Below the pieces are notes generated by a model. That model was not told where the DNA came from and did not search any database. It was given only the letters and a program-made list of their open reading frames with translations. A stretch of 64,000 bases of DNA, from NCBI RefSeq assembly GCF_000023105.1, contig NC_012669.1:1240001-1304000 (forward strand), in the 5' to 3' direction. Of this stretch, positions 3,293-61,672 are shown in pieces. Every line of letters begins with the position of its first letter. The first letter of the stretch is position 1. Source of the stretch: Beutenbergia cavernae DSM 12333 (lineage in GTDB: Bacteria > Actinomycetota > Actinomycetes > Actinomycetales > Beutenbergiaceae). The translations under genes were made by a program, and so were the position numbers.

Positions 3293-3371
3293 GGAGCCGA
3301 GTCCATCACGAGGCGCCGACATCGGCGTCGTGCCGGGCCGAGTGCCACCGGATCCCACGCCGCTGCCTGCG

Positions 3372-3414
3372 GTGCTACGCCACCGCCCCGCCAGGCGGAG
3401 CAGTGACGTAGCAC
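3372..3414 (-). terminator. 21-bp hairpin stem with strand-specific G-U pairs
   Basis: Read on the reverse strand, the 43 bases fold back completely. There are 18 Watson-Crick pairs plus three pairs (positions 9, 13 and 16 of the stem) that are U-G wobbles in the reverse-strand RNA. They would be A-C mismatches in the forward-strand RNA. The element starts 55 nt after the stop of the reverse-strand gene ending at 3470 and ends 79 nt before the rmuC start. No U-tract follows, so a terminator or RNA-stability element is inferred. Confidence 0.55.
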
Positions 3415-3469
3415 CGTGCGGCAGCCCCGCAGTCCCAGCGCAGTCCCACGGACAGGGCGGACGCGGGGC

Positions 3470-10848: not shown

Positions 10849-11049
10849 GTGAACGTGATCAGACGCAGCGTCGTCGCCAGCACAGCAGTCGTGGCCGCCG
10901 GCGCCCTGGTGGTGGCAGGCGGCCTGGCGCTCGCTAGCGACCGACCCGGGACTGCCGAGAACCCGCCGACGACCTACGCGCAAGACACCCGAGAGGCTCC
11001 GGGGATCCTGGCCGATCCAACTGCCGACAACACCGACGTGTTCGGCTAG
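10849..11049 (+). CDS. Small secreted protein
   Basis: 66 residues. A basic start ('VNVIRRS') and a hydrophobic core ('VVASTAVVAAGALVVAGGL', residues 8-26) form a signal peptide, with likely cleavage after 'ALA' near residue 29. The mature part would be only ~37 polar residues ('PTTYAQDTREAPGILADPT') without Cys. GTG 10849 has a strong ribosome site, GAGGAG at 10838-10843. Function unknown. A long palindrome begins 18 nt after its stop. Confidence 0.6.
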   Translation: MNVIRRSVVASTAVVAAGALVVAGGLALASDRPGTAENPPTTYAQDTREAPGILADPTADNTDVFG

Positions 11050-11067: not shown

Positions 11068-11143
11068 GGCTCGAGCTCGTACCCACGCGACGAGCTCGTA
11101 CTCCCGGGAGTACGAGCTCGTCGCGCGGGTACGAGCTCGAGCC
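11068..11143. repeat. 76-bp near-perfect palindrome, copy 1 of GAGCTCGTAC element
   Basis: Symmetric about CCC|GGG at 11105/11106, with 37 of 38 bases paired between arms. Each arm reads GGCTCGAGCTCGTACCC, then ACGCGACGAGCTCGTACT, so GAGCTCGTAC occurs twice per arm. A related element lies at 61606-61672. Both sit just behind a forward-strand stop codon. As RNA it would be a very stable hairpin without a U-tract; as DNA it could extrude a cruciform. Confidence 0.85.
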
Positions 11144-11274: not shown

Positions 11275-11685
11275 ATGAAGGTCACGCGCACGATCACGGT
11301 GTTCGACGCCCCCGACCTGGCCACGGAGAGCGCGTTCTGGGCCGACCTCCTGGGTGGCACGGTCGACGCGGAGGACGACTGGCACAGCGTCAGCGTCGAC
11401 GGCGAGTGGCGGATGGGCTTCCAGCTCGCTCCCAACCACGTCCCTCCGGACTGGCCGGACGGCACGCCGCAGCAGCAGATCCACCTCGACGTGTGGGTCG
11501 ACGACCTCGCCGAGGGCCACGAACGGGTCCTCGCCCTCGGTGGGCGTCTCCTGCAGTCCTCCCAGGAGCCGGACGCGGACGAGCAGTTCGTCGTCTACGC
11601 GGATCCCGCCGGGCACCCGTTCTGCCTGTGCTGGGCGGCGGCGGATCCTGCGGTCGCCGTCGAGCCACCCGACGAGCAGGCGTAG
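11275..11685 (+). CDS. VOC family protein
   Basis: 136 residues, single VOC module of the PhnB/'glyoxalase-like' group: 'TVFDAPDLATESAFWADLL' at the start and 'FVVYADPAGHPFCLCWAAA' near the end, a pattern common in actinobacterial VOC proteins. The ATG at 11275 starts directly at the first strand ('MKVTRTITVFD'); an upstream in-frame ATG at 11242 would add 11 residues without family support. The stop lies 7 bp before the globin start, and the globin overlaps the next gene, so the three genes form one operon. Substrate unknown. Confidence 0.85.
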   Translation: MKVTRTITVFDAPDLATESAFWADLLGGTVDAEDDWHSVSVDGEWRMGFQLAPNHVPPDWPDGTPQQQIHLDVWVDDLAEGHERVLALGGRLLQSSQEPDADEQFVVYADPAGHPFCLCWAAADPAVAVEPPDEQA

Positions 11686-14856: not shown

Positions 14857-14909
14857 GCAGTGGGCGAGGGGCACCGGTGCCCGACCGGCGCCGGTGCCCC
14901 TCGCACTGC
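14857..14909 (+). terminator. Large hairpin between binding-protein and permease genes
   Basis: GCAGTG..CGAGGGGCACCGG pairs with CCGGTGCCCCTCG..CACTGC around a ~13-nt loop. This gives roughly 19 pairs with a two-base bulge. It starts 23 nt after the binding-protein stop, with no T-run behind it. It is likely a partial terminator or 3'-protective element. Confidence 0.6.
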
Positions 14910-57945: not shown

Positions 57946-59271
57946 GTGCGTAGGCGCGTCCTGCTGGCGACCATCTCCGCCGTCGTGGTGGCGGTCATCC
58001 TGATCGGGGTCCCGACGGCGGTCCTGGGCGCGCTCATGGTGCGGGACGCGGCCGTGCAGAACCTCGAGGTCCGCACGGCGGCAGTGGCGCGGCAGGTCGA
58101 GCGCTACTTCGCGATCAACGCTCCCCTCAGCCCGGACGCCCTCGAGCTGTGGGTCGAGGAGGACTCGGCCCTCGCCGCCTCGATCACGGTGACGACGCCG
58201 GACGGCGAGGTCATCCACGTCGGGCCGGATTACTCGGACCAGCCGACGTGGTTGGTCAAGCAGGCGACGCCGTCGGGCGGGCTCGTGGTGCTCGACATCT
58301 CCGGTTATGCGCTCGCGTGGCGGATGGGCCAGGTCGTCGTCTACGTGGTGATCGCGTCGGCGGTCGCGTTCGTCATCGCGACGCTTCTCGCGCGCTACCA
58401 GGCGCGCCGGCTCGCCGCGCCGCTCGTCTACCTCGCGGCCAGCGCCGAGCAGATCGGCTCGGGGCAGGTGCGGCCGCGGCTGGAACCGTCCGGTGTCGAG
58501 GAGATCGACCTCGTGGCGGCCGAGCTGGCGCGGACGTCGGACCGGATGGCGGCTCGGCTCGCCGCCGAGCGGCAGTTCGCGGCCGACGCGTCGCACCAGC
58601 TCCGCACCCCGCTCACGGCGCTGTCGATGCGGCTCGAGGAGATCCAGGCGCTCACCACCGACGACGACGTGCGCGAGGAGGCGCGGGTCTCCCTCGAGCA
58701 GATCGAGCGACTCGTTGCCGTCGTCGACGACCTGCTCACGAACTCGCGACGCGCGGGCGGCGGCACGACCGAGGTCGTGCACCTCGCCGACGTCTTCCAC
58801 CAGCAGGAGGACGAGTGGGCGCCGACTTACGCGCGCAGCGGGCGGAAGCTCGTGTTCGACGACGCCGGGCCGGCCTCCGTACTGGCGTCGCCGGGCGCCT
58901 TGGCGCAGGTGCTCGCGACGATCCTGGAGAACTCCCTCAAGTACGGCGCCGGGACGACGCGGGTGGCGTGCCGGACGTCGTCGTCGGGCCACGGCGTGGT
59001 GATCGAGGTGAGCGACGAGGGGCCGGGCGTGGACGCCAAGCTGGCGCCGCGGATCTTCGAACGCTCGGTGACGTCCGGGAAGGGCAGCGGGCTCGGGCTC
59101 GCCCTGGCGCGGGATCTCGTGGCGGCCGACGGCGGCCGCCTCGAGCTGCGCCAGGCGTCCCCACCGGTGTTCGCGATCTTCCTCAGCGCGGTGCCCACGC
59201 GCCTCGACCCGGACCGCGTGCTTCCCCCGGGGTCGCTCGTGGCGGTGGGCCGCCGGCGACGCCGACCCTGA
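57946..59271 (+). CDS. Sensor histidine kinase
   Basis: 441 residues. Two membrane helices (about 6-32 and 126-148) enclose an extracytoplasmic sensor of ~95 residues. A HAMP linker follows ('RRLAAPLVYLAASAEQIG'). The phosphorylated His217 lies in 'FAADASHQLRTPLTALSMR'. The ATPase domain has 'TILENSLKYGAGTT' (N box), 'VSDEGPGVD' (G1) and 'SGKGSGLGLALARDLVAAD' (G2). Stimulus unknown. GTG 57946 lies 3 bp after the response regulator stop, so the two form an operon. Confidence 0.95.
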   Translation: MRRRVLLATISAVVVAVILIGVPTAVLGALMVRDAAVQNLEVRTAAVARQVERYFAINAPLSPDALELWVEEDSALAASITVTTPDGEVIHVGPDYSDQPTWLVKQATPSGGLVVLDISGYALAWRMGQVVVYVVIASAVAFVIATLLARYQARRLAAPLVYLAASAEQIGSGQVRPRLEPSGVEEIDLVAAELARTSDRMAARLAAERQFAADASHQLRTPLTALSMRLEEIQALTTDDDVREEARVSLEQIERLVAVVDDLLTNSRRAGGGTTEVVHLADVFHQQEDEWAPTYARSGRKLVFDDAGPASVLASPGALAQVLATILENSLKYGAGTTRVACRTSSSGHGVVIEVSDEGPGVDAKLAPRIFERSVTSGKGSGLGLALARDLVAADGGRLELRQASPPVFAIFLSAVPTRLDPDRVLPPGSLVAVGRRRRRP

Positions 59272-59282
59272 CGACGCCGCGC

Positions 59283-59783
59283 TCAGCCCACCTGGTCGGG
59301 TTCGAGCACCGGCCCGACGCCCGCGACCGGCTTCTCCTCGTCGCCGGTGAAGACCCACGAGCGGTAGCCGAGGTAGCGGAACGCGGTGCCGAGGCCGAGG
59401 CCGACGACGTTCGCGGCGATGTTGTCCGCCAGGGCGGTCTGCAGGCCGAGCACGTAGTGGGAGAACCACAGGCAGCCGACGGCGATGACCATGCCGCCCA
59501 CGTTGACGAGGCTGTAGCCGATGAACTCCCGGGTGCGTGACGCCGTCCGCCGGTCCGAGAACGTCCAGTGGCGGTTGCCGAGCCACGCCACGAGCGTCGC
59601 GACAGCGACGGAGACGACCTTCGCCGTCAGCGGCTTCGCCTCCAGCAGGTGCCCGGGGCCAAATCGCAGGAGGTTGAACAGCCCGACGTCGACGACGAAC
59701 GCGACGGCGCCCACCGAGCCGAACCGCAGGAGCTCCGGGAGGAGGCCGCGGAGGCGGGTTGACGAGAGGGCGCGGGTCGGCAC
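59283..59783 (-). CDS. GtrA family membrane protein
   Basis: 166 residues with four helices (about 20-40, 50-70, 88-108, 120-140): 'LLRFGSVGAVAFVVDVGLF', 'KVVSVAVATLVAWLGNRHW' and 'FRYLGYRSWVF', matching the GtrA pattern. GtrA-like proteins are proposed flippases or carriers for polyprenyl-linked sugars in wall or O-antigen glycosylation. The GTG at 59783 is fixed by TACGCT ending 6 nt upstream. It lies between the histidine kinase (convergent) and purK (divergent); the acyltransferase and glycosyltransferase 2-4 kb away could belong to the same surface-polymer theme. Confidence 0.88.
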   Translation of the reverse strand: MPTRALSSTRLRGLLPELLRFGSVGAVAFVVDVGLFNLLRFGPGHLLEAKPLTAKVVSVAVATLVAWLGNRHWTFSDRRTASRTREFIGYSLVNVGGMVIAVGCLWFSHYVLGLQTALADNIAANVVGLGLGTAFRYLGYRSWVFTGDEEKPVAGVGPVLEPDQVG

Positions 59784-61605: not shown

Positions 61606-61672
61606 CGAGCTCGTACCTTCGCGGCGAGCTCGACCATCCGGGAGTGCGAGCTCGCCGCCAGGTACGAGCTCG
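61606..61672. repeat. Inverted repeat element, copy 2 of GAGCTCGTAC element
   Basis: Left arm CGAGCTCGTACCT then GCGGCGAGCTCG. Right arm CGAGCTCGCCGC then AGGTACGAGCTCG. The arms face each other around a short spacer that retains GGGAGTG. It shares the double GAGCTCG(TAC) layout of the 11068-11143 palindrome but with several mismatches. It sits 17 nt behind purE. Confidence 0.8.

Follow-up and report, generated by a model that had tools for sequence, protein, structure and literature searches.

The DNA analysed here (the window) is a stretch of 64,000 nucleotides of Beutenbergia cavernae DSM 12333 (NC_012669.1, positions 1,240,001 to 1,304,000). Between a small open reading frame and a predicted gene downstream of it (Table 1) lies a 76-bp palindrome, whose two 38-nt arms follow each other with 0 nt of spacer and pair at 37 of 38 positions (97%), as the sequence-only reading of this DNA had described. 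Among the near-perfect inverted repeats of the window it is the longest, and its strand folding energy is -98.4 kcal/mol, against -55.7 +- 4.0 for dinucleotide shuffles (z = -10.6). The sequence reported to occur twice in each arm is indeed there: it is GAGCTCGTAC, at 11073 and 11092 and, on the reverse strand, at 11110 and 11129. The window also has two shorter inverted repeats, 3370-3416 (23 nt, 87%) and 14864-14904 (18 nt, 94%), which are possibly ordinary hairpins.

Table 1. The palindrome, its parts and its neighbours, in window coordinates
Feature	Position	Strand	Remark
Whole palindrome	11068..11143		two 38-nt arms, one mismatch
Conserved 68-bp element	11072..11139		four boxes, 11-8-11-8-11-8-11 layout; from alignments of 15 and 105 copies
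Box A, CGAGCTCGTAC	11072..11082	+	11 nt
Box B, CGAGCTCGTAC	11091..11101	+	direct repeat of A, 19 bp on
Box B'	11110..11120	-	inverted copy
Box A'	11129..11139	-	inverted copy
Another copy of this subfamily, more decayed	61606..61672		67 bp; 18 bp past the end of the preceding predicted gene
Upstream small ORF (read earlier as a small secreted-protein gene)	10850..11049	+	ends 22 bp before the element; neighbour, outside the element
Downstream predicted gene (read earlier as a VOC gene)	11275..11685	+	gene call; neighbour, outside the element

Aligned copies end sharply, and define the inner 68 bp as the conserved unit, the outer 4 bp on each side varying across copies. This unit consists of four 11-nt boxes, CGAGCTCGTAC, two direct and two inverted, set at a pitch of 19 bp with 8-nt spacers, and its ends are symmetrical (CGAG...CTCG). 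When the 64 kb were scanned generically for four matching boxes in the same geometry, the palindrome was the sole place found, and block-shuffled sequence gave 0.

In the own genome, BLAST with the consensus detects 15 strong copies; a covariance model detects about 25 places, including the second copy within the window. An assembly artefact at a contig join, which the sequence-only reading had named as refuting evidence, is excluded: related elements occur over and over, at these 25 or so places and at more in other genomes, and the genome consists of one contig of 4,669,183 bp, the length published for B. cavernae HKI 0122T (PMC3035217). Copy numbers per subfamily are to be read as lower bounds. 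The covariance model (R1) misses subfamilies with distant boxes, and the family of the gene at 1527071, described below, is absent from its own-genome list.

Across 105 copies from six genomes, the 68-bp geometry is kept in nearly all, and the box differs between subfamilies. Within one element the four boxes largely match; its arms pair, and its boxes agree, better than those taken from different elements of the same genome: the pairing of A with A' in the own genome is 0.967 within an element versus 0.674 +- 0.059 across elements, and the identity of A and B in another element-rich genome (G011) is 0.911 versus 0.770 +- 0.016. Spacers pair less. In a second subfamily (CGAACCTCGYAC), boxes of 12 nt alternate with shorter spacers, the 19-bp pitch and 68-bp length being unchanged. 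This agreement within elements, combined with the constant layout, points to an element that is probably constrained by sequence recognition with a fixed geometry.

Some places hold several elements. At 59201-59363 of the own genome (G000:C1, L072), two copies 95 bp apart have similar flanks, a tandem duplication of the element together with its flank. In G011, four intergenic regions (L097, L099, L100 and L085) contain 3 to 4 elements each, some 100 to 200 bp apart, and in L099 the boxes differ.

Of the 24 genomes of the taxonomic family that were searched with the same model, the own genome and three from a single further genus are rich in the element (about 20 to 46 places each); it is sparse in 2 and, by this model, absent in 18. 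The element-rich genomes are B. cavernae (G000) and G011, G012 and G013, these three being taken as Pseudactinotalea suaedae, P. terrae and Actinotalea caeni. A scan of named genomes also found the element in Cellulomonas sp. APG4 and Microbacterium sorbitolivorans. Placement is overwhelmingly intergenic, as judged from predicted genes: this is true of 103 of the 105 copies from six genomes, and of 18 of 19 copies in other sampled subfamilies.

Positions are not shared between related species. When ten solo copies were compared with congeneric species, the element occupied the orthologous site in 0 of 17 syntenic intervals, and two further sites were reciprocally empty between species; copies therefore turn over fast. 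For one solo element of G013, the orthologous site in G011 carries an unrelated 55-nt hairpin (L357:221-275). Between congeners, intergenic DNA has diverged too far for insertion junctions to be placed at base level. We found no target-site duplications, exact flank repeats of at least 3 bp being no commoner than in swapped flanks; extension of the palindrome by 1 to 3 bp is somewhat commoner than chance. The sequence-only reading had proposed that the palindrome persists through a function or has spread recently. Recent spread is the part that finds support, in a dispersed family, near-perfect copies and empty sites in congeners.

Two part-arm matches 1.17 kb apart, found by BLAST in the own genome, led to a gene for a 336-aa protein at 2254995-2256002 (locus L159), about 1.0 Mb from the window copy. 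It belongs to the same subfamily, two partial, decayed arms with the same box forming its flanks, and full palindromes enclose its homologues in G013 and G011. L159, the locus that we examined closely, has a single gene between the repeats. A search of the taxonomic family with these proteins brought the total to about 40 genes, the majority of which lie between palindromes whose box is specific to the gene, and order-wide, a family of AbiEi-like plus PD-(D/E)XK genes is found in 164 of 198 sampled genomes. Left and right flanks that match in inverted orientation above the null accompany 72 of 99 unique genes, versus 1 of 57 control genes from the window (Fisher p 2e-20), about a quarter of the 99 being without matching flanks under this test; an above-threshold palindrome on both sides is seen for 40 of 99, versus 1 of 57 controls. 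Outside the order the link is patchier, and in classes of the phylum that are more distant it holds at some loci only. Two loci are organised differently. A distant paralogue of the own genome (G000:C1:1939385, L299) has arrays in place of palindromes, with direct CGCGAGAGGTTTTCTGCGCCAC repeats (22-nt period) upstream and an inverted, related unit downstream, and in L201 (G021) an AbiEi-type gene lies between inverted repeats of about 213 bp that are alike to each other.

Many unrelated box sequences all accompany this one protein family, and the own genome itself has several paralogues with different boxes. One of its genes, at 817305, carries CGAACCTCGCAC, as does the second solo subfamily. 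Should dispersed copies be seeded by palindromes that flank a gene, solo copies are to be expected also for the palindrome next to the gene at 1527071. Its box, CGAGTCAGACCC, is unlike that of the window element, and it repeats at about 21 places in the own genome, two of them beside the gene. Likewise, the palindrome of a gene in another family is found at 12 places in its genome, at about 10 and 1 in two congeners, and at 0 in two others. Both predictions held, and a gene's box would thus appear to predict dispersed copies. For CGAGATCGCAC (G012), TGAGATCGCAC (G013) and two solo families of L062, a resident gene with the matching box was not among the genes found. The L062 palindromes (L062:3838 and L062:4509, near 4437837 and 4438508 of G000) are solo and have boxes CGAGCACGTAC and CGAGGTAGCAC; the CGAGGTAGCAC box, that of L062:4509, is identical to the one carried by a gene of another species (L166). 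We also considered whether the winged helix reads a box code. A first correlation did not prove robust when one short repeat was left out and scores were taken raw; protein and repeat divergence correlate weakly, in a manner that is not domain-specific and that changed with the scoring. Because the correlation is not robust, we make no claim on such a code.

The N-terminal half of the 336-aa protein matches AbiEi antitoxin models, and the C-terminal part of some of its relatives matches REase MTES_1575 (PF18741), below the curated cut-off. Residues E212, D243, E261, D263 and K267 of the L159 protein are invariant or conserved in at least 90% of 22 sequences, in the pattern E..D..ExDG..K or ES..D..ExDG..K. 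The C-terminal part is thus predicted to be a PD-(D/E)XK (Vsr-like) nuclease domain, with its catalytic acidic residues and ExK-like motif conserved. An AlphaFold2 model (pLDDT 92.7) has as top structural matches the AbiEi antitoxin 6y8q and Rv2827c; TnsA of Tn7 ranks lower (prob 0.60, a weak similarity). The family members tested matched only antitoxin-like or weak nuclease models, or none.

Several known systems resemble parts of this arrangement. As in REP/RAYT systems (REPtrons), a gene is bracketed by palindromes, solo palindromes of the same sequence are dispersed intergenically, several independent families share a genome, and gene and repeat go together. However, REP/RAYT systems employ an HUH Y1 transposase, whereas the protein here is AbiEi-like with a PD-(D/E)XK nuclease, and REPs are described as 20 to 40 bp long with a GTAG/CGTC tag at one end (PMC3733652), whereas the palindrome here has 68 bp, four boxes and no GTAG tag. 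The REP-associated transposase suggested by the sequence-only reading did not turn up: RAYT (Y1_Tnp, PF01797) is absent from all four element-rich genomes, and the one genome of the 24 in the family with PF01797 has no element. Membership in REP/RAYT fails because the HUH transposase is absent and the size and layout of the palindrome differ. With AbiE type IV toxin-antitoxin systems, the protein shares its N-terminal DNA-binding and middle domains, which match AbiEi models and structure, and solved AbiEi antitoxins bind inverted repeats (PMC7319586). It differs in its extra C-terminal nuclease domain, in the lack of a toxin gene between the repeats of L159, and in having repeats genome-wide and on both sides of the gene. 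The Vsr-like/MTES_1575 likeness consists of the below-cut-off PF18741 match of some members and the ES..D..ExDG..K pattern; MTES_1575 is described in giant HEPN-helicase proteins (PMC3710099), whereas here AbiEi and the domain form one protein, encoded between palindromes. The solo copies also recall MITEs, being short, non-coding, palindromic, dispersed, intergenic and related to a longer, gene-bearing form, except that no target-site duplication was found and that the gene-bearing form lacks a recognisable classical transposase.

We consider it probable, at about two chances in three, that the palindrome of the window is one solo representative of a short, dispersed element, the full form of which is an AbiEi-like/PD-(D/E)XK gene between two palindromes, and that solo copies are spread in trans. 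Association and specificity can be read from the sequence; that the protein recognises the box, cleaves DNA and drives the spread is what we infer. The AbiEi-type DNA-binding part would read the box, the four boxes in two inverted pairs seating several protomers. The nuclease domain may then nick or cut at or near the palindrome, either as a duplex or as a hairpin extruded during replication, after which the 68-bp unit would be duplicated or transferred to a different site, mostly between genes. Solo palindromes with a gene's box would be non-autonomous copies spread in trans.

Alternatively, the palindromes may be operators of a regulon, in which an AbiEi-like repressor binds the box at its own promoter and also at scattered sites that control other genes, the nuclease domain being secondary. 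AbiEi antitoxins do repress their own promoter via inverted repeats (PMC7319586), and the palindromes closely flank the AbiEi-like genes. We nevertheless find this unlikely, given that palindromes stand on both sides of the gene (above threshold on both in 40 of 99), that convergent gene pairs enclose 26 of 104 solo copies, with no preference for divergent (promoter) gaps, that sites are not conserved between congeneric species, and that the nuclease residues are kept. Quite unlikely, too, is a MITE-like family moved by some other transposase, with the nuclease genes as cargo or preferentially inserted beside palindromes: both sides of a gene carry a box particular to that gene, and this box predicts dispersed copies; at L159, the locus studied in detail, the repeats enclose a single gene; and many unrelated boxes go with one protein family. 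The unequal inventories of repeats and genes in some genomes speak for such a transposase nonetheless, as does the lack of a target-site duplication pattern that would name the enzyme.

Functional RNA hairpins at gene ends, serving as terminators or mRNA stabilisers, would agree with the very stable fold and with copies that often lie within tens of bases of a stop codon. Yet the T-run of an intrinsic terminator was not found after the G+C-rich hairpin, no Rfam family was matched at its cut-off, the boxes are invariant and variable pairs of the own-genome family show no covariation beyond shuffles, copies also occur in divergent gaps, and positions are not conserved. This makes the scenario very improbable, and the absence of both T-run and covariation leaves without support the RNA hairpin that the sequence-only reading had listed among possible functions. 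No better odds can be given to self-marking or decoy sites, where the enzyme would be a restriction-like defence and the palindromes its protected or sequestering sites. AbiEi and Vsr-like domains recur in defence systems (PMC3710099), and the own genome has several paralogues with different boxes, but bracketing on both sides and the mobile-like distribution are left unexplained, and no partner gene lies between the repeats in L159.

Returning to a palindrome-bracketed nuclease gene with solo copies spread in trans, we infer an element family that is REP/RAYT-like and built on an unrelated nuclease. The data suggest a kind of spreading DNA element that has not been described before and is common in one actinobacterial order; we call it new because protein and palindrome layout are unrelated to RAYT/REP, while the apparent working mode is REPtron-like. 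In the literature covered (bioRxiv and most subscription papers lay outside its scope), a pairing of AbiEi, DUF559 or MTES_1575 with palindromes or repeats was not found. A wider proposal, to which we give even odds, is that AbiEi-nuclease proteins form a large actinobacterial class of repeat-spreading enzymes, present in most genomes of the order, which would combine a winged helix with PD-(D/E)XK in place of HUH, DDE or recombinase chemistry, and multiply gene-specific palindromes with a rapidly diversifying box code. If the spread in trans is true, these elements would represent a second, independently evolved answer to the question that REP/RAYT poses, namely by what means palindromic repeats are spread and maintained; the nuclease would have another fold, and the box code would change from gene to gene. 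Many intergenic palindromes of actinobacteria would then be explained, and pairs of enzyme and target would be ready for testing.
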